Positions 53,841 through 63,518 are shown, counted from the stretch's first letter. The stretch is 64,000 nucleotides of DNA from Nitrospirota bacterium (GCA_040754395.1 JBFMCL010000011.1:1-64000); one strand, 5' to 3'. Numbers and translations are program-made. Notes: a model not told the origin generated them from the letters alone.

Positions 53841-53920
53841 TTGATTTAGAGCTCCCGACCTCCCATAATTATATTATACATAGTGTTTTGTTGATTTAAT
53901 AACATTTCTCACTAAATCAA
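53841..53920 (+). promoter_or_regulatory. Promoter and TTGATTTA repeats before the polysaccharide operon
   Basis: TTGATT (53841-53846), a 17-base spacer and CATAAT (53864-53869) form a plausible promoter. TTGATTTA occurs at 53841-53848 and 53891-53898, and its reverse complement TAAATCAA at 53913-53920, the latter two as an inverted pair 14 bases apart. This looks like an operator array for an unknown regulator. Confidence 0.55.
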
Positions 53921-53935
53921 TAACTTGCAAGGATT

Positions 53936-56170
53936 TTGCGCATGAAAAACAGGGAAGAAACATCACGGGCAGCAGAGAGGATCAGGCATCTTTTGGCGGT
54001 GATTGCGGTTATCGTCACGCTCTACTATCTTTACTGGAGGGTTACTGAAACCTTTAATCCCAATGCCATGTTCTTTTCATGGGCCCTTTTCGGTGCCGAG
54101 GTTTTTGGTGCCGTCACGACCTTTCTTTTTTATTTTGTGGTATGGAACCCGCTTAAACGTAAAGCCCCGCCTCCCGTCACCGGTGCAACTGTTGACATCA
54201 TGATACCGACAAAAAATGAGTCTGTAGATCTGCTGCGGAAAACTCTTCTCGCATGCAATGATCTGAAATATCCTCACCGCACTATTGTCCTGGATGACGG
54301 AAAGCGTCCTGAAGTAAAAACGCTCTGTGAAGAACTGGGCTGCGTCTATCTCGCAAGGGAAACCCATGAACATGCGAAGGCCGGGAACCTCAACTTCGGA
54401 CTGCAGCATTCGACTGCTCAATATGTCGCCATCTTCGATGCAGATCATGTTCCCCTTCCCCATTTCATCGACCGGCTCATCGGGTATTTCAGGGATGAAA
54501 AGGTCGGGTTTGTCCAAGCACCCCAGGAGTTCTATAACATCGATTCGTTCCAGCACAGGACCGATCCCAAAAAGAAAATGATATGGGGAGAGCAATACCT
54601 GTTCTTCTCCCTTATCCAGCCGGGAAGGGACCGATGGAATGCCGCCTATTTTGTCGGCAGCTGCGCGGTCATCCGAAGAAATGCCCTCGATGACATCGGG
54701 GGTTTTGCCACAGGTTCGATCACAGAAGACATGCTCACCTCCATAAAGCTCCATGCAAAAGGCTGGTCATCCGTCTATCATAATGAGAACCTCGCGTATG
54801 GCATCGCTGCCGAAACTCTCAAGCCCTTTCACATTCAGAGGCAGCGGTGGGGTGTGGGAAGCTGGCAGGTATTCGTAAAGGCAAATCCCCTTCTGCTCAA
54901 GGGACTGAGTTTCCGTCAGAGTCTCTGCTACCTCTCCTCAATGATCTACCCTCTGGAAAGCATCCAGAAGATCATCTTCTACCTTACGCCGCCGGTAGCC
55001 CTTTTCACCGGCGTGCTTCCGATGAAGGCGCTCGACGTCAATTATCTCATGCACTTCATTCCTTATTTCATAATCTCTATCCTCGGGTTCAATGAAATGG
55101 CGAGGGGGTTTGGCGGCCAGATCATGCTTGAGCAGTTCAGCATGGGAAAATTCTTCACCTATTTCAAGACGATGATAATCCCCTTTCTCCCGAAGAAGAG
55201 CAAGGAATTCAAGGTCACGCCAAAGTCGGAACTCGGGCATGCCCCGGTTACCCTTATCATGCCCCAAATGCTCATACTGCTTGCAAGTCTCGTCGCGATC
55301 TGCTGGGCGCTCGTCGAACTGCTCATCGGGCGGCGCAATGACAGCTTTATCGTCGCGGTCAACTGTTTCTGGGCGCTCTATAACAGCGGACTTGCGCTGG
55401 CCATTATTCAGTACGACTACAAAAAACTTGTTCAGCGCAGGGAGCGGTTCAGGATGCCCGATACGCTCCCTGTGTATTTCCAGTCAAGGAATGGAACACG
55501 GTCTCCCCGAAGCCTCGCGGTTGCCGACAACATCACTGAAGACGGTCTTTCCATTCTGACAATAGGACAGGTTCCGGCAGGACAGCACGTGAATATCGAT
55601 TTACTGCTTCCGAACTCTGTACTCAGCCTGCAGGGGAAGGTAGTGCAGGAGAAGAGCATATCAGCGGAACAGCACAAGGTCTCTCATCTCGGCGTGCATT
55701 TCAACAATATGCCGCAGCAGACAAAGGATATGCTTTCGCGCTATCTCCATGAATCGGCAATCACGAAGTACATGAAAGAATACTCAACCAGATATAAAAC
55801 GTATCTGGAGATGCGGCTGATGGGCAGGAAGCATTTCCGCGACCGTGCATACAGGGCGATTGCATACCTTCCGGTTGTCCTCAGCACCGGTGAAGGACAT
55901 GAGACATATGCGGTGATGAAAGATATCTCTGAATCCGGAATTCTGCTTGCTTCACGGGTATTGATTCCCCCGGGAAGCAGGGTCTCCATGCATGTCATGC
56001 TCGGGGAAGAAATTCTCGAACTCGGGGGGACGGCAGTGAGGGATTTGCCATACGGAAGCGAGGATTATCCTGAATATCTCGTCGGTATTCATTTCACTCC
56101 TGATTCCCAGAAGAAAGTGCACAGCCTCCTCACAATCGCCGACAGGATAGGAAACTTCATATTCCCATGA
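53936..56170 (+). CDS. bcsA: BcsA-like glycan synthase (GT2) with two PilZ domains
   Basis: The 744-residue protein has two N-terminal membrane helices and a GT2 domain with the processive signature: Asp120-Asp121, D168-A-D170, TED at 263-265 and QRQRW at 301-305. The gating-loop motif FKVTPK near 423 and further membrane helices follow. Two C-terminal PilZ domains come next (about 505-610 with RRERFR and NITEDG; about 640-735 with RDRAYR and DISESG). These are typical of c-di-GMP-activated cellulose synthase. The product could be cellulose or another beta-glucan. No bcsB follows. Its end overlaps the next gene by 4 bases. ATG 53936 or 53942. Confidence 0.88.
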   Translation: MRMKNREETSRAAERIRHLLAVIAVIVTLYYLYWRVTETFNPNAMFFSWALFGAEVFGAVTTFLFYFVVWNPLKRKAPPPVTGATVDIMIPTKNESVDLLRKTLLACNDLKYPHRTIVLDDGKRPEVKTLCEELGCVYLARETHEHAKAGNLNFGLQHSTAQYVAIFDADHVPLPHFIDRLIGYFRDEKVGFVQAPQEFYNIDSFQHRTDPKKKMIWGEQYLFFSLIQPGRDRWNAAYFVGSCAVIRRNALDDIGGFATGSITEDMLTSIKLHAKGWSSVYHNENLAYGIAAETLKPFHIQRQRWGVGSWQVFVKANPLLLKGLSFRQSLCYLSSMIYPLESIQKIIFYLTPPVALFTGVLPMKALDVNYLMHFIPYFIISILGFNEMARGFGGQIMLEQFSMGKFFTYFKTMIIPFLPKKSKEFKVTPKSELGHAPVTLIMPQMLILLASLVAICWALVELLIGRRNDSFIVAVNCFWALYNSGLALAIIQYDYKKLVQRRERFRMPDTLPVYFQSRNGTRSPRSLAVADNITEDGLSILTIGQVPAGQHVNIDLLLPNSVLSLQGKVVQEKSISAEQHKVSHLGVHFNNMPQQTKDMLSRYLHESAITKYMKEYSTRYKTYLEMRLMGRKHFRDRAYRAIAYLPVVLSTGEGHETYAVMKDISESGILLASRVLIPPGSRVSMHVMLGEEILELGGTAVRDLPYGSEDYPEYLVGIHFTPDSQKKVHSLLTIADRIGNFIFP

Positions 56171-57579
56171 CCGCACAAGACAAATACTCCAGATACACCA
56201 TCTGGTGCATCCTGATGTATGCGCTCATTATCACAGGCTGGCACCTGACCTACGGTTCCGTTTCATATATGGAAGCAATGAATATCTTCACGGGGAGACA
56301 GGTCCTCTCCGGGAATTTCGGATTTGAACCCCTTATGAACCTCGGATCATCACTCATACAGCCTCCCCTTGCAGCCATAGGCGATGCCGCAGGAGGCCTC
56401 TATGGCGCACGGGCTGTCAGCATGCTTTTCGGTATTGCCCTGACATGGATCATATATCTGACCGCAGGAATTCTGTTCACCGAAAAAAAGGGGCGGCTTT
56501 CCGCCCTGCTGTTCCTGTTCACCGGAACAGCGGTATTCGTTTCGGTGTCCGCAACAGGTGACATCATCGCAGCGTTCTTTCTCGGGATTTCGTTTTATCT
56601 CATCCTGTTGTCCGAGAAGAAACAGTCGGCGATTCTTTTGCTGGCCGGGGCGTCAGCCCTGTTTCTGGCCTCTGTCACGAAATATATCGCCGTCATTTAT
56701 CTGCTTTCTTTCCTGGTCTTTGTTTTCTGGAGGTTTCCTCTGCTCAGGGCTCTGGTGTTCTTCTTTCTGCCACTTGCCGCCCTGCTCTCCCTGTACGGAA
56801 CCCTTGTACTCTATCCCGCCATGGAATCAGTCATCAGGAGCTACCTTACCACCTATCAGCAGATTCCGTTCCCTGTACCTGATGCAGCGGGCTGGAACCT
56901 CCAGTGGGTAGAAATGCCGTATCTCCTTGCGATATTCGGCATGTTCCACAAGGAAAAAGGAAAAGACGCGATCATGCTCACCATCTTTTCCACACCGATT
57001 TTCCTGCTGTATTTTCTGAACGGCACCGAGCAGTCAATCGACAAGAACATGATTTTTTCCCTGGTGTTTCTGATCCATGCAGCTGCTCTTGGCGTCGACC
57101 ATATGGGCAGTCTCTTTTCGTCCAATGTGCCGGCCTCCTGGGTAAAGCCGTTTTTTACTACAGCGGTACTGATTGTCATTTGGGTCTTCGGGATAAAACA
57201 GATTGCATGGTTCGAACAGCAGTATGCTAATCTGACGCCGGTGATTACCTTCCTCCAGCAGAAAGGCCATAACGGGATGACCGTTGTCCTTGATTCCAGC
57301 GCGCGGTACCAGGACTATGTCTACCGCTACTCGCTCGAAAAACAATTTCCTTCCGCACGCTTTATTCCTGCTCCTTTCAATGACAATGACAAGAGGGACG
57401 AGGTGCTCGCTGCAGCACAACCCGATTTTGTAATCTTCAACGAGTTCTATGTCGGCACCTATTTCTGGAAGGTTCCGATATATTATTACGACAAGGGGTT
57501 TGCCCTTGTGAACGAATTCCGGCTGCCATTCTGGACAGGGATTCAAAATGTCAATATCTTACGAGGAGGTAATGCATGA
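56167..57579 (+). CDS. GT39/ArnT-like polytopic glycosyltransferase
   Basis: The 470-residue membrane protein has about ten to twelve hydrophobic segments and a soluble C-terminal domain (about 370-470). Near the N-terminus it has VSYMEAMNIFTGRQVLSG, close to the acidic first loop of GT-C (PMT/ArnT) enzymes, where Asp/Glu is catalytic. Such enzymes transfer sugars from polyprenyl-phosphate carriers outside the membrane. The substrate is unknown. Coupled to the synthase by a 4-base ATGA overlap and to the next gene by another. Confidence 0.7.
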   Translation: MTAQDKYSRYTIWCILMYALIITGWHLTYGSVSYMEAMNIFTGRQVLSGNFGFEPLMNLGSSLIQPPLAAIGDAAGGLYGARAVSMLFGIALTWIIYLTAGILFTEKKGRLSALLFLFTGTAVFVSVSATGDIIAAFFLGISFYLILLSEKKQSAILLLAGASALFLASVTKYIAVIYLLSFLVFVFWRFPLLRALVFFFLPLAALLSLYGTLVLYPAMESVIRSYLTTYQQIPFPVPDAAGWNLQWVEMPYLLAIFGMFHKEKGKDAIMLTIFSTPIFLLYFLNGTEQSIDKNMIFSLVFLIHAAALGVDHMGSLFSSNVPASWVKPFFTTAVLIVIWVFGIKQIAWFEQQYANLTPVITFLQQKGHNGMTVVLDSSARYQDYVYRYSLEKQFPSARFIPAPFNDNDKRDEVLAAAQPDFVIFNEFYVGTYFWKVPIYYYDKGFALVNEFRLPFWTGIQNVNILRGGNA

Positions 57580-58010
57580 ACCGTTCAGCTTTTTTGCTTG
57601 TGTTTCTTTTTCTCTCTTTTTTCCTTTCAGCCGATTCACATGCGATAGAAGGATTTTCTGGCTCGACATGGGGAGAACTCAGATATGAGCACCTTGCGAG
57701 GGGAGAAGGCGAATCCGACGTAATACTTCGCGGCTGGGTAAAACAGGGGATAGATTGGGCCAGATGGGGCAACACCAAAGTGAACACATACCTTACCGTA
57801 CGCTATGTATGGGATTCCGAGAAGCTCGACTGGAATAATTCTCTCGGTCCGGGAGCAGGCATTGCAATCGATACCTATATCCCGAAAGGGCCTTATGTTT
57901 CATGGGGTGTCGAATACCTCTGGGACAGATTCTACCGGTCAGCCGAGACCGAGCAGAAAGTGGTGGTGTTCATGAACTGGTACGGCAACTGGGATCTTAA
58001 GAAAAAATAG
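57576..58010 (+). CDS. Small secreted beta-rich protein, probable outer-membrane component
   Basis: The 144-residue protein has a signal peptide (SAFLLVFLFLSFFLSADSHA) and alternating amphipathic strands rich in Trp/Tyr: GSTWGELRYEHLARGEG, KVNTYLTVRYVWDSEKL, GPYVSWGVEYLWDRFY. This resembles a partial beta-barrel such as the C-terminal region of the phage N4 receptor NfrA. As the only secreted protein in the operon it might help the polymer cross or anchor to the outer membrane. Function inferred from position. Confidence 0.65.
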   Translation: MNRSAFLLVFLFLSFFLSADSHAIEGFSGSTWGELRYEHLARGEGESDVILRGWVKQGIDWARWGNTKVNTYLTVRYVWDSEKLDWNNSLGPGAGIAIDTYIPKGPYVSWGVEYLWDRFYRSAETEQKVVVFMNWYGNWDLKKK

Positions 58011-58043
58011 GGTACGGAGAAGGATTTCAGGGAGATTCATACT

Positions 58044-59570
58044 ATGGGATTATGGAGTGTGTATTTTCTGGGAAAGATTTTCCTGTACCTCTGGGGGGCG
58101 ATCCGTTTCAGCGTTCTGCCGAACCTCCTGTTCGCCGCCTTTCTGGCTGTGCCCGTGCCCAAGACCCTTCCGCTGCACCATGTGCTGAAATCGGCAAAGC
58201 TGGGGCTGAGCTTCCTGTTCGCCTTTCTCCTCCTCTGGTACGATTCCTATTTTCCTCCTCTGCTGTATACAATCAGCACGTTTCAGCAGATCGGGCTGCC
58301 TGAAAAAGAGTATATTTACCGTTTTGTAATGAACACCCTCAACCCCCTTGCAGTGCTGGCGCTGCTTTTCATTCTCGTCCTGTGCATATTCCTGAACAGG
58401 CGCATCAAACTTGCCCCTGTCGTGGTGCTGCTCATGCTGATAGTCCCTCTGTTCGGATTGACCCGGAAAGACGTAGGAATAGAGGAATACCTTACCTCGT
58501 TCTACCAGTCAGAGTCGAAAAGAATGGTTTCCTTTGAACAACCGGAGAAGAAAGCGCCTGATTTCGACATACTCATCCTGCATGTCTGTTCACTGTCATG
58601 GGATGACCTGAGGACAGTCGGGTTTGATACGCATCCTTTCCTCAGAAAATTTGATATTCTCTTCACCAATTTTAATTCAGTATCGAGCTATACGAACCCC
58701 TCAGCCATCAGGCTCCTGAGGGCAAACTGCGGTCAGCAGAAACATGAGGCTATTTACCGGGAAGCTTCGAAAGAATGCTACCTGCTCGAAAGCCTCCGCT
58801 CCCTGGAGTATCAGACCTATACCGCCATTGACAACGACGCTCCTGCGTATCGTTTCGTCGAAGATATCATGGACCACGGGAAGGCGGATGCCCCGATTTC
58901 CCTGAAGGGCATCCCCGTGCAGCAGTACGACTTTGACAAGACGCCCATCCATAACGATCTCCAGATTCTCGAACGATGGTGGGATATGAGACAAAAAGCG
59001 GACAAAAAACGGGCGGCGCTGTATTTTGACATCACCACCCTCCATGGCGGTGCCCACTGGGCACATGAAAAAGACTGGTGGAAAAGGGACCGTCCGACCC
59101 ACTATAAAGAGTTCCTGCTGAACCTTTTTGCGAACCTTGAGAAATTCTTCCAGCGCATTTCTGCATCAGGGCGGAATTTTGTTGTCGTTTTTGTCCCGGA
59201 ACACGGGATGGCCCTTCGCGGCTCCAGCATCCAGGCGCCTGACCTCAGGGATATCCCCCTTCCCCAAATAACAAACATTCCTGTCGGGATTAAATTCATC
59301 GGCCAGGGATTTCAGGATACTCCTGTGCAGCAGGAAATTGTTGCAAAGCCGACAAGCTATCTTGCCCTTTCGTGGACGCTTTCCTCACTTCTCAAAGAAC
59401 CGCCTTTCAGCAGAGAGGGCCGTTCACTCAGGCAGTACCTTGAAGAGATACCGGAAACCAGATTCGTTGCCGAAAACCAGGAAGCGCTGGTTGTCAGGAG
59501 AGACCAGGACTTTTATCTGTACGGGAAGGAAAAGACGTGGACCAAACTCCCATCATCTGCACTCCGTTAA
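58044..59570 (+). CDS. bcsG: BcsG-like phosphoethanolamine transferase
   Basis: The 508-residue protein has about four to five N-terminal membrane helices and a periplasmic alkaline-phosphatase-superfamily domain. The BcsG hallmarks are Cys182 in HVCSLSWDDL, NFNSVSSYTNPSAIRLLRANCGQ split around Thr217, and Glu386-His387 in VPEHG. In E. coli BcsG, zinc is bound by Cys243, Glu442 and His443 and the nucleophile is Ser278. The spacing (35 residues after the Cys) puts Thr217 at the nucleophile position. It adds phosphoethanolamine to cellulose. 33 bases after the small secreted protein gene. Confidence 0.88.
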   Translation: MGLWSVYFLGKIFLYLWGAIRFSVLPNLLFAAFLAVPVPKTLPLHHVLKSAKLGLSFLFAFLLLWYDSYFPPLLYTISTFQQIGLPEKEYIYRFVMNTLNPLAVLALLFILVLCIFLNRRIKLAPVVVLLMLIVPLFGLTRKDVGIEEYLTSFYQSESKRMVSFEQPEKKAPDFDILILHVCSLSWDDLRTVGFDTHPFLRKFDILFTNFNSVSSYTNPSAIRLLRANCGQQKHEAIYREASKECYLLESLRSLEYQTYTAIDNDAPAYRFVEDIMDHGKADAPISLKGIPVQQYDFDKTPIHNDLQILERWWDMRQKADKKRAALYFDITTLHGGAHWAHEKDWWKRDRPTHYKEFLLNLFANLEKFFQRISASGRNFVVVFVPEHGMALRGSSIQAPDLRDIPLPQITNIPVGIKFIGQGFQDTPVQQEIVAKPTSYLALSWTLSSLLKEPPFSREGRSLRQYLEEIPETRFVAENQEALVVRRDQDFYLYGKEKTWTKLPSSALR

Positions 59571-59660: not shown

Positions 59661-60371
59661 TCATGACTGATCACACAACTGACCATCCGATATTTTGAGC
59701 ACCCTGTGGCACCGGCCGGACAGTGACTCATTGTGGGTCACAATGACAAAACTCACGCCCTTATTCTTATTAAGGTCAATAAATATATTGAAAAGTTCTT
59801 CACCTGTTGCAGTATCCAGATTTCCAGTAGGTTCATCCGCAAGCACTGCCTTCGGTTCGAGAATAAGCGCCCGTGACACCGCAACACGCTGCTGCTCTCC
59901 TCCGGAGAGTTCCCCCGGCCTGTGCCGCTTTCTTGCAGAAAGACCCATCTCATCGAGAAGCCTCTCTGCCCTGCTCCTGATTTCCGCATATCCTGATATT
60001 TTATTCCCGTAACCTGAACCGAATCCGATGAGTCCCGGCATCATCACATTCTCAACGGCCGAGAATTCCGGGAGGAGATGATGAAACTGAAAGATAAATC
60101 CTATCGTGCTGTTCCTGAAAGATGCGAGGGATTTTCTGTCAAGAGAGAATATATCCGTATTGCCGTAAAACACTCTGCCCGAGGTCGGCCTGTCGAGTGC
60201 CCCGAGGATATGCAGCAGGGTGCTTTTTCCTGCTCCTGATGCACCGATAATCCCGACCATTTCCCCTTCCTTGATCGACAGATTGATGTCTTTCAGCACC
60301 TGGAGTTCGCCTGCATCTGTGGCAAAGGCCTTGTTGAGGTTGTCTGTATGAATGAGCGTCTGCGCCGGCAT
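59661..60371 (-). CDS. lolD: Lipoprotein-releasing ABC transporter ATPase
   Basis: The 236-residue ATPase has Walker A GASGAGKST, Q-loop FQFHHLLPEFSAVENV, signature LSGGEQQR, Walker B AVLADEPTGNLD and H-loop VTHNE. The FHHLLPEF sequence marks the LolD branch of the MacB family. With LolC/E it extracts lipoproteins from the inner membrane. Separated from lolC by a small membrane protein gene. Confidence 0.95.
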   Translation of the reverse strand: MPAQTLIHTDNLNKAFATDAGELQVLKDINLSIKEGEMVGIIGASGAGKSTLLHILGALDRPTSGRVFYGNTDIFSLDRKSLASFRNSTIGFIFQFHHLLPEFSAVENVMMPGLIGFGSGYGNKISGYAEIRSRAERLLDEMGLSARKRHRPGELSGGEQQRVAVSRALILEPKAVLADEPTGNLDTATGEELFNIFIDLNKNKGVSFVIVTHNESLSGRCHRVLKISDGQLCDQS

Positions 60372-60377
60372 CTTCCG

Positions 60378-60662
60378 TTATTTTTCTTTTGTGAACCCGG
60401 TGAGGTCCTTTATCTTTTCCCCGGTTTTTTTGATACCCTTGGTAACCTTGCCTGTTGTTTCCTTCATATCCTCCGTCTTCTTCTTGAGACCGTCAGCCTC
60501 CCTGCCAACATCTTCACTTTTTTCCCTGATGATCTCTCCGGCCTGTTCTGTCTTTTTGCCGAACCACCGGAAAGGCTGTCCTCCCTGCCAAAGCGAAAGC
60601 GCAAGAAACACCAATGCGATAACGATGAGCATCCCGATGATTCTTCCTATAAACCTGAGCAT
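60378..60662 (-). CDS. Small membrane-anchored helical protein between lolC and lolD
   Basis: This 94-residue protein has one N-terminal membrane helix (FIGRIIGMLIVIALVFLALSLW) and a strongly charged Lys/Glu coiled-coil tail (KKTEQAGEIIREKSEDVGREADGL). It ends 6 bases before lolD begins, so it is cotranscribed. No family recognised; possibly an envelope-stress or YtxH-like protein. Confidence 0.75.
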   Translation of the reverse strand: MLRFIGRIIGMLIVIALVFLALSLWQGGQPFRWFGKKTEQAGEIIREKSEDVGREADGLKKKTEDMKETTGKVTKGIKKTGEKIKDLTGFTKEK

Positions 60663-60764
60663 TGTTCCGATACTACCTCCTCCGGAAGATTCCTTCCGGC
60701 ATCATCGAAAAAAGGTTCATTGAATACATGCCAGGGTGTGCGGAACAGTTAACGGCTATCCTGT

Positions 60765-61994
60765 TCATTCGTACCGTAACGGCTCCACAGGGTTCATTCT
60801 GGCAGCCTGCCACGCCGGGTAGAGCGTAGCGAGAAAGCTGATGATGACCGCTGATAATGATACGGTGATAAAGTCGAACAGTTTTGTTTTCACAGGGAGG
60901 TGACTGAGATAGTAGACATCCGCAGGAAGCTTGATGATCTCATAGCTGTTCAGGACATAGCACAGCAGGTATCCTCCGGACACCCCGATTACCGTTCCGA
61001 CCAGACCGATCAGCATGCCCTGCAGCATGAAAATGGTCATGACTCCCCTGTCTGTTGCGCCCATTGCCTTCAGTATCGCGATCTCACGTTTCTTCTCGAT
61101 CACATTCATGATAAGCGTACTCACAATATTGAATGAAGCGACGAGGATGATCAGCACCAGGATGACAAACATCGCAAACTTTTCGAGTTTCAGTGCGGAG
61201 AAAAGATTTCTGTTCATCTGCATCCAGTCTTTCGCGTAAAGCGGGAAGCCGAGTTTGTTCTGTATTCTCTCCCTTACCTCAGACGCATTGTAGATATCGG
61301 CAAGTTTCAGCTGGATGCCGGTAACCTCATCCTTCATGTCGAAAAATTCCTGCGCAGCCTTCAGATCGGTCAGGACAAGGTTCGAATCATATTCGAACAT
61401 CCCGACCTCGAAAATTCCCACGACCCTGAATTGCCGTATCTTGGGAAGCATGCCGAGAGGGCCTATCTTCCCTATCGGGGAAAGGATGCTGATGGTATCT
61501 CCCCTGAACGCCCCGATGCTTCCGGCGAGTTCCCTTCCGATAATGATCCCCGGCACCTTTCCTCCTGCGGCAAGGCCTTCAATGCTTCCCTCCCTCATGA
61601 ACCTGCCGATTTCTGTCGTCTTCTTCTCCTTCTCCGGGTCGACACCGCGCAGGAAAACCCCATGTGCCTTCTTGCCGTACGATACCATCACCTGGCCCAT
61701 GACAAAAGGGGCTGCCGAAAGAATCTCTGTTTCGTCTTTGAGCTGCTCCGTGACTTGCTGATATGCCGGCAGGGTTCCCCGGTAATTCATAATAACCATG
61801 TGGGCGTTGACCCCGAGTATCTTTTTCTGCAGATCTTCATGAAACCCGCTCATGACCGAAAGCACCACAAGAAGTGCCATCACACCGACAGCAACCCCGC
61901 CGATGGATATGAGGGTATTGACAGAAATACCCTTGTGCTTTTTCTTTGACTTCAGATATCTGAGGGCTACGAAAAAATGATACGGGAGGTTCAT
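60765..61994 (-). CDS. lolC: Lipoprotein-releasing ABC transporter permease
   Basis: The 409-residue protein has an N-terminal membrane helix (GGVAVGVMALLVVLSVMSGF), a periplasmic MacB_PCD domain (about 45-255) with the GREL region, and three C-terminal helices ending RMNPVEPLRYE, the FtsX/LolCE pattern. A single LolC/E-type gene implies a homodimeric LolCD2-like complex, as in many bacteria. 33 bases after lysS. Confidence 0.93.
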   Translation of the reverse strand: MNLPYHFFVALRYLKSKKKHKGISVNTLISIGGVAVGVMALLVVLSVMSGFHEDLQKKILGVNAHMVIMNYRGTLPAYQQVTEQLKDETEILSAAPFVMGQVMVSYGKKAHGVFLRGVDPEKEKKTTEIGRFMREGSIEGLAAGGKVPGIIIGRELAGSIGAFRGDTISILSPIGKIGPLGMLPKIRQFRVVGIFEVGMFEYDSNLVLTDLKAAQEFFDMKDEVTGIQLKLADIYNASEVRERIQNKLGFPLYAKDWMQMNRNLFSALKLEKFAMFVILVLIILVASFNIVSTLIMNVIEKKREIAILKAMGATDRGVMTIFMLQGMLIGLVGTVIGVSGGYLLCYVLNSYEIIKLPADVYYLSHLPVKTKLFDFITVSLSAVIISFLATLYPAWQAARMNPVEPLRYE

Positions 61995-62027
61995 ACTGGT
62001 GCCGTTCTCCGGGATTGTACCGGCACC

Positions 62028-63518
62028 CTACTGCTCCGGCTTCAGCTGCGGGAACAGGATCACATCCCTGATGGACTGGGAATTGGTGAGCAGCATGACA
62101 AGCCTGTCTATTCCGATTCCCTCTCCCGCTGCAGGCGGCATGCCATATTCGAGGGCCCTGAGAAAGTCCTCATCCATGCTGTGCGCTTCCTCATCTCCAA
62201 GCTCCTTTGCCTCTGCCTGTTCCTGAAACCTCTGCCGCTGATCCATAGGGTCATTCAGTTCCGAGAACGCATTTGCAATCTCCCTCGATGTGATGAACAG
62301 CTCGAAGCGCTCAACGAGACCAGGATTGTCCTGTTTCCTCTTTGCCAGAGGTGAAAGCTCCACCGGGTGGTCAATAATAAAAACAGGCTGGACAAGTCCG
62401 GGCTCGACCTTCTCCTTGAATATCTCATCGAGAATCTTGCCGAGGTGTGCACCTTTCTCGATTACCACGTTGTTCGCTTTTGCCCACGCGCCTGCCTTTC
62501 CGGCATCACTGAATATGTCCCGCGGAACCCCCTTCTTCTCAAGCGCATCAAGCATCGGTATCCTCGGCCATGGAGGTGTCAGGTCAATAGTCTCTTCGCC
62601 ATACCGTATCTTCAGCGTCCCGAGTGTCTTTTCCGCGACATAGGCAATCAGTTCTTCTGTAAGGGACATCAGGAAATGATAGTCCCGGTAAGCGATATAG
62701 AATTCAAGCATCGAGAATTCAGGGTTGTGCTTTGTCGATATCCCCTCGTTCCTGAAGTTCCTGTTCAGTTCATACACGCGTTCGTACCCGCCGACAAGCA
62801 GCCTTTTCAGATAGAGTTCAGGAGCGATCCTGAGATACAGGTCCATGTCAAGTGCATTGTGATGGGTCCTGAACGGCCGCGCGGTCGCACCTCCCGGAAT
62901 CGGCTGCATCATGGGTGTCTCGACCTCGATGAAGCCCTTTGCCTCAAGGAAATCCCTGACGGCCTTAATAATAGCGCTTCTCTTGATAAATGCCTGCCGC
63001 ACCTCGGGATTCACGATCAGATCCACATACCGCTGCCGGTATCGTGTCTCGACGTCCTTCAGGCCATGCCATTTTTCGGGCAATGGCCGGAGAGATTTTG
63101 CGAGGAAGGTCACATCGTCGACCTCAACAGTGAGCTCATTCGTTTTGGTCCTGAAGAGCCGCCCCTTCAGTCCGATGATATCTCCGATGTCCAGTTTTCT
63201 GACATGAAGATACTTTTCGCCAAGAATATCCTTCTTGAAATACACCTGTATCTTTCCCGATGTGTCCTGTATATGGGCAAAGGCAGCCTTTCCGAAGTCC
63301 CTCATGGCAACTACCCTTCCTGCAAGAGAACATGCCACCGGATCGGATTCAAGTAATTCTTTTGATGAGGACCCGAATCTTTCGTGAAGGCCGGAGGCGT
63401 GGTCAGCAGCATCAAAAGTCCCGCCGAACGGATCTACACCTGACTCGCGCAGTTCATTCAGCTTTTTTATACGCTGTTCTATGAGTTCGTTTATGTCTTC
63501 CATTGAAGGCAAATGCAA
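62028..63518 (-). CDS. lysS: Lysine-tRNA ligase (class II)
   Basis: The 496-residue protein has the N-terminal OB-fold anticodon-binding domain (VACSLAGRVVAMRDFGKAAFAHIQD) and class II motifs: 1 (FLEAKGFIEVETPMMQPIPGGATARPF), 2 (YELNRNFRNEGISTKHNPEFSMLE) and 3 (GIGIDRLVMLL). It charges tRNA-Lys. ATG 63518 is about 10 residues before the usual start, and ATG 63503 is an alternative. First gene of lysS-lolC-small protein-lolD. Confidence 0.96.
   Translation of the reverse strand: MHLPSMEDINELIEQRIKKLNELRESGVDPFGGTFDAADHASGLHERFGSSSKELLESDPVACSLAGRVVAMRDFGKAAFAHIQDTSGKIQVYFKKDILGEKYLHVRKLDIGDIIGLKGRLFRTKTNELTVEVDDVTFLAKSLRPLPEKWHGLKDVETRYRQRYVDLIVNPEVRQAFIKRSAIIKAVRDFLEAKGFIEVETPMMQPIPGGATARPFRTHHNALDMDLYLRIAPELYLKRLLVGGYERVYELNRNFRNEGISTKHNPEFSMLEFYIAYRDYHFLMSLTEELIAYVAEKTLGTLKIRYGEETIDLTPPWPRIPMLDALEKKGVPRDIFSDAGKAGAWAKANNVVIEKGAHLGKILDEIFKEKVEPGLVQPVFIIDHPVELSPLAKRKQDNPGLVERFELFITSREIANAFSELNDPMDQRQRFQEQAEAKELGDEEAHSMDEDFLRALEYGMPPAAGEGIGIDRLVMLLTNSQSIRDVILFPQLKPEQ

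Follow-up and report, generated by a model that had tools for sequence, protein, structure and literature searches.

A BcsB-independent BcsA-like synthase encoded with a predicted outer-membrane barrel protein and BcsG in Nitrospirota: a probable exopolysaccharide secretion system

We analyzed a stretch of 64,000 nucleotides from a Nitrospirota bacterium (GCA_040754395.1, JBFMCL010000011.1:1-64000; hereafter, the window) in which four adjacent genes encode a BcsA-like synthase, a polytopic protein of the GT-C type, a 144-amino-acid (aa) protein with a signal peptide, and BcsG. We propose that their products probably secrete an exopolysaccharide as a synthase-dependent system: the synthase would be independent of BcsB, a paired six-strand unit would replace BcsC, BcsG would decorate the polymer, and the GT-C protein would be an accessory. 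The genes are:

53936..56170, plus strand: BcsA-like processive GT2 synthase (744 aa, TTG start; identified with Pfam and NCBIfam)
56167..57579, plus strand: polytopic GT-C protein, PMT/GT39-like (470 aa; overlaps the synthase gene by 4 bp)
57576..58010, plus strand: 144-aa signal-peptide protein, a single-unit member of an outer-membrane beta-barrel family (4-bp overlap with the GT-C gene)
58044..59570, plus strand: BcsG phosphoethanolamine transferase (508 aa; 33-bp gap after the 144-aa gene)

All four frames are open and the genes (53936-59570) are tightly or translationally coupled. A preliminary description of this region had reported four coupled genes at 53841-59570, and the gene coordinates, the overlaps, and the Pfam and NCBIfam matches bear this out, except that the start at 53841 takes in about 95 bp of noncoding upstream DNA. 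(The synthase gene also has an in-frame ATG at 53942, which is an alternative to the TTG at 53936.)

The genome that contains the window (2.98 Mb, 99.96% complete) has no match anywhere to BcsB (PF03170) or to the barrel of BcsC (PF05420), and the E. coli controls were positive for both. So, the absence of BcsB and BcsC that had been noted in the operon extends to the whole genome, and copies elsewhere, which the preliminary description had named as evidence against its proposal, were looked for and not found. BcsB is confined to those relatives whose operon encodes it: it is present in 3 of the 12 other BcsG-bearing genomes, each time inside a bcs operon, and above the cut-off in 2 of 13 further genomes chosen for the barrel or BcsG, both times within the operon.

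BcsB-independence follows the lineage of the synthase itself. The Pfam matches fit the earlier reading of this protein as a GT2 synthase (85.5 bits) with two PilZ domains (two stretches, 65.4 bits; cut-off 22.5). It has the motifs of a processive enzyme (TED, QRQRW at 301, and an FKVTPK gating loop, which match QxxRW, TED, and FxVTPK of BcsA). As for the PilZ motifs (RxxxR and (D/N)xSxxG), domain 1 has RERFR and NITEDG, and domain 2 has DISESG and no clean RxxxR. The BcsB-less enzymes that we tested score 396-657 bits against the CelA model TIGR03030, versus 790-840 bits for BcsB-partnered BcsA (790-817 bits for the BcsB-partnered Nitrospirota relatives). Within the BcsB-less range, the clade with the GT-C gene lies at 396-417 bits, Sinorhizobium BgsA scores 407, and other clades reach 657. 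In a first tree, a branch supported at 100% separated all 21 BcsB-less synthases (from Nitrospirota and Elusimicrobiota) from 42 others. In a second tree, with bootstraps and known comparators, the split from BcsB-partnered BcsA was supported at 100/99. BgsA and an Agrobacterium HlyD-paired enzyme joined the BcsB-less side, on long branches whose exact place is unsure, and support for the BcsB-less group as its own clade dropped to 83/71. Also, a simple hydropathy count predicts about two N-terminal transmembrane helices before the GT domain in the window's clade, versus four in most BcsB-partnered BcsA.

The family to which the 144-aa protein belongs has units of about 113 residues that begin with G-STWG and contain a QGIDW motif. 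Searches of Pfam and NCBIfam gave no meaningful match to the unit region of any member. The majority of members have two units, and single units are found in the window and in L035, L038, L044, L022, and others (L denotes a locus and G a genome). AlphaFold2 predicts that the doubled protein of L036 forms one 12-strand barrel (predicted local distance difference test score, pLDDT, 88.3; predicted TM-score, pTM, 0.82), with one strand seemingly split in the DSSP listing. Foldseek matched this model to outer-membrane barrels, with 12-strand autotransporter domains first and PgaA lower down. The model of the window's protein (pLDDT 81.6) has a signal peptide and six strands, in keeping with its earlier description as secreted and beta-rich; its top match in the PDB is BcsC (6tzk), which is not significant (E = 0.047). 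As six strands are too few to close a barrel of such size alone, we infer that the window's protein acts as a homodimer.

The genomic positions of this family suggest its role. In three loci (L031, L046, and L081), the barrel is fused behind tetratricopeptide repeats (TPRs) in the bcsC slot, between BcsZ and BcsG. In six others (L039, L040, L042, L043, L045, and L120), it stands alone beside BcsG in a BcsA-BcsB-BcsZ-BcsG operon whose cluster lacks BcsC. Because of these positions, we propose a BcsC-like export role for the family, and most likely the 144-aa protein takes over from BcsC as the partner in the outer membrane. The preliminary description had suggested that the small secreted protein might replace BcsC, and the TPR fusions and the 12-strand model make this very likely. 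More broadly, the family adjoins BcsA-type synthases with and without BcsG as well as smaller GT2 proteins, and nearly every locus with enough sequence has a GT2 synthase next to the barrel (the exception is L163).

Some members of the family occur in other settings. The window's genome contains a second synthase-barrel pair (L118:8263-10203, minus strand), which comprises a GT2 protein of 360 aa, a membrane protein of 131 aa, and a barrel unit of 152 aa; its neighbors are a GGDEF/EAL protein and a large protein that resembles subtilases. Similar pairs occur in L162, L170, and L171. A barrel protein at L048:11710-13185 (plus strand) has a C-terminal Cds6_C/NTF2-like domain. On the synthase side, L168:6040-9081 (plus strand) encodes a BcsB-less enzyme of 1013 aa whose first and second predicted transmembrane helices are separated by a TPR array, as if the scaffold that BcsC usually holds had shifted onto the synthase.

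By its profile matches, the fourth protein is a genuine BcsG (PF11658, 428 bits, cut-off 24.8; TIGR03368, 416.4 bits, above the equivalog cut-off of 410.2), which upholds its designation as a BcsG-like transferase. C243, S278, H396, E442, and H443 of E. coli BcsG (numbered by the solved protein) align with C182, T217, H334, E386, and H387. We take C243 to be a zinc ligand. The metal-site and catalytic His/Glu residues are intact in every BcsG homologue that covers them. Among 95 homologues (some of whose loci duplicate each other), 89 have Ser at position 278, 1 has a gap there, and 5 rows, which correspond to the GT-C operons with BcsG (three in all), have Thr; the change is found in no others. 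Ser278 is the reported nucleophile (PMC11379886). Its replacement by Thr is conservative. In phosphoethanolamine transferases of the EptA/MCR type, Thr is the nucleophile, and so, by analogy, it is plausible that the window's BcsG is active despite Thr217.

Two species of one genus (G144 and G322) have a bcsG gene that is a candidate for encoding a selenocysteine BcsG (L022:7920-9464, minus strand, and L120:9208-10749, plus strand). Each gene has a single in-frame UGA, at exactly the codon equivalent to Cys243 (HI-UGA-SLSWDD or SLSWED), and the frame is otherwise intact. In both genes, a hairpin with a GGUC loop follows the UGA, with an energy that is only moderately unusual. Both genomes encode SelB; searches for tRNA-Sec detected it in two congeners (92%) but in neither the G144 nor the G322 assembly. 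The window's genome has a tRNA-Sec with a good score (G000:C1:231988-232081, 71 bits), about 1.3 kb from a contig end, and no SelB above the cut-off (the best match was 95.6 bits).

To ask where the operon occurs, we scanned species genomes and obtained 80 BcsG loci, which we annotated with home-made profiles. (Loci outside the phylum were gathered via BcsG, so barrels without BcsG are under-sampled there.) BcsG is encoded by 13 of 296 genomes of the phylum and by 7 of 177 genomes of the window genome's order. The full four-gene order is found in three Nitrospirota genomes from three genera: that of the window, L036 (MnB_6), and L034 (clean1511). Because the order recurs in the other two, we do not attribute it to chance; the preliminary description had set conservation of the order beforehand as a test, and its absence from relatives was not observed. 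The synthase, GT-C, and barrel genes occur without BcsG in L161 (where the contig end cuts the synthase) and L169. BcsA-BcsG-barrel clusters without BcsB are found in Nitrospirota and Elusimicrobiota. BcsA-BcsB-BcsZ-BcsG-barrel clusters are found in Nitrospirota, Nitrospinota, a record labelled Deltaproteobacteria, and one gammaproteobacterium.

Downstream of the operon, at 59661-63518, the minus strand carries lolD-, lolC/E-, and lysS-like genes, as judged by reading the sequence. The nearest of these encodes a LolD-like ABC ATPase (59661..60371, minus strand), which is convergent with bcsG and outside the system. Rfam gave only chance matches near the operon, and no riboswitch was found there. 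In G219, from the same family as the window's genome, the synthase-GT-C-barrel order (L161:4193-7730, minus strand) and the convergent lolD/lolC/lysS neighbors are kept, and the position of BcsG is occupied by a CDP-alcohol phosphatidyltransferase and a HAD hydrolase. G221 has only a C-terminal bcsG fragment (L033:9168-9812, minus strand; 54% identical), with no synthase nearby. It adjoins recR and amidohydrolase-like genes, as does the intact cluster of G280 (a genome from the window genome's order), and is probably a remnant.

To explain how these parts could work together, we propose that the BcsA-like enzyme would use a nucleotide sugar to build a beta-glucan chain and extrude it through its own transmembrane channel, with cyclic di-GMP (c-di-GMP) gating the synthase via the PilZ domains. 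In the periplasm, BcsG would move phosphoethanolamine from phosphatidylethanolamine to the chain, with Thr217 in place of Ser278. Two of the six-strand units would pair to form a 12-strand outer-membrane pore, which would release the chain in place of BcsC. The GT-C protein would be an accessory that adds a lipid-linked sugar, or perhaps a scaffold, given its broken DE motif (described below). Because BcsG is genuine and the synthase has PilZ domains, a c-di-GMP-controlled, phosphoethanolamine-decorated polymer is our leading guess for the product. More tentatively, the core may be a minimal secretion system of synthase and barrel, in which a half-barrel homodimerizes to 12 strands. Relatives would then show the single unit, its tandem duplicate, and the TPR-fused duplicate, with the scaffold on the synthase in some (L168).

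Several findings weigh against this proposal. The window's synthase scores 417.5 bits against TIGR03030, well below the equivalog cut-off of 699.1. Profile searches did not link the barrel family to BCSC_C or to any PDB chain, and in place of the TPR array and 16-strand PF05420 barrel of BcsC, the window's protein has 144 aa with no TPR and no PF05420. The predicted 12-strand pore is also smaller than the 16-strand barrel of BcsC. The modifying activities of the GT-C protein and of BcsG are put in question by the broken DE motif and by the change from Ser to Thr at the nucleophile, respectively. Finally, profiles for BcsZ and BcsB had no match within the 64-kb window, but BcsZ and BcsE/F/Q/R were not searched for genome-wide.

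The preliminary description had suggested that the GT-C protein replaces BcsB, and one could imagine it as a periplasmic co-polymerase, with the small protein replacing BcsC. It matches PMT_2 at 31.1 bits (cut-off 26.1; its relatives match PMT at 38.4 and 32.5 bits), and in five clusters the GT-C gene is flanked directly by those for the synthase and the barrel. The Asp of the DE motif, which we take to be the catalytic residue of the GT39/PMT family, is lost in the window (MEA, with E36 kept) and in L036 (AEA), which would be tolerable in a scaffold. However, DEA is retained in L034, L161, and L169 (three of the five copies; the Glu-Ala is invariant), and the synthases accompanied by GT-C do not group together in the tree (one branch is the window's clade, the other is L169). 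Most BcsB-free relatives consist of synthase and barrel with or without BcsG, and the BcsB-less synthases of L024-L028, L037, L044, L052-L057, L087, L164, and L166-L168 have no adjoining GT-C gene. We therefore reject GT-C as a general substitute for BcsB and find it improbable in this role in the window, as BcsB-independence tracks the synthase lineage. A second alternative concerns the small protein, which could be an outer-membrane enzyme that modifies lipid or polymer, or an adhesin, with the chain leaving by an unlinked channel. The single unit is the size of OmpX, and OmpX and PagL are among the many weak structural matches of its model. We consider this unlikely, given the TPR fusions, the operons in which the family stands in for bcsC, the predicted 12-strand barrel of the doubled form, and the near-constant company of a GT2 synthase.

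The polymer itself might be another beta-glucan, for instance a mixed-linkage one, that is still modified by BcsG. This is a real possibility, though not the one we would choose, and it is compatible with the secretion system that we propose: the TIGR03030 scores of the GT-C clade are near that of BgsA and far from those of BcsB-partnered BcsA, and BgsA-type enzymes group with the lineage in the second tree. Against it, the synthase keeps the QxxRW, TED, and FxVTPK motifs of BcsA, other BcsB-less clades score much higher, and the BgsA placement is unsure. Also, we know of BcsG action on cellulose only. Lastly, the operon might be a type II bcs operon in decay, in which half of the barrel has gone along with BcsB and BcsC, or whose single unit reflects assembly collapse of a tandem repeat. 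The patchy spread of BcsG and the truncated gene of G221 would fit, but the four open frames, the recurrence of the order in three genera, and the intact catalytic motifs of synthase and BcsG make decay very improbable, and the BcsB-less state marks a whole clade. We judged assembly collapse to be unlikely in itself, as the halves of the L036 protein are too divergent and single units occur in several lineages.

To our knowledge, BcsB is generally held to be indispensable for bacterial cellulose synthases outside cyanobacteria, and BcsC is regarded as the pore for export. In the present case, BcsB is absent from an entire lineage of BcsA-like enzymes with PilZ domains, and a new barrel family occupies the position of BcsC. 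BcsB-less cellulose synthases were already known in cyanobacteria (PMC12430437), as was BgsA in rhizobia (PMC5567048). Our literature searches returned nothing on the barrel family or on BcsG in Nitrospirota, and as far as they reach, neither a BcsB-independent PilZ lineage with BcsG nor this barrel family has been described. The system has very few parts, which would suit it to the reconstitution of polysaccharide secretion, and its natural single and doubled units are material for testing how export barrels evolve by duplication. BcsG and the CDP-alcohol transferase with HAD hydrolase appear to be swappable in one slot, which suggests modular decoration of polymers in these mostly uncultivated bacteria.

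Among known systems, the type II Bcs system of E. coli (BcsRQABEFG, BcsC, and BcsZ), which makes phosphoethanolamine cellulose (PMC11470070; PMC11379886), shares with the window a GT2-PilZ synthase and a BcsG with the Cys/His/Glu site. Unlike it, the window's system has no BcsB and no BCSC_C, has its own barrel family and a GT-C gene, has Thr in place of Ser278, and has a synthase below the CelA cut-off. EptA/MCR-type transferases share the Thr as predicted nucleophile, but the window's sequence is above the equivalog cut-off for BcsG. The Sinorhizobium BgsA/BgsB system, which makes a mixed-linkage beta-glucan (PMC5567048), also has a BcsA-like synthase without BcsB, on the same side of the tree and with a similar TIGR03030 score. 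However, no c-di-GMP domain is recognizable in BgsA, its partner is a periplasmic adaptor (L177), and there is no BcsG or small barrel. The cyanobacterial type IV and XcsA-HlyD-TolC cellulose systems (PMC12430437) likewise combine a PilZ synthase without BcsB with alternative export partners, which are an HlyD-like adaptor and, in a proposed model, a TolC-like channel, and they lack BcsG. As for BcsC (TPRs and a 16-strand barrel, PDB 6tzk), the new barrel likely has the same role and is fused to TPRs in the bcsC slot of some relatives, but it has no detectable sequence homology to BcsC, its 12 predicted strands come from two six-strand units, and the window's form is a single unit without TPRs.

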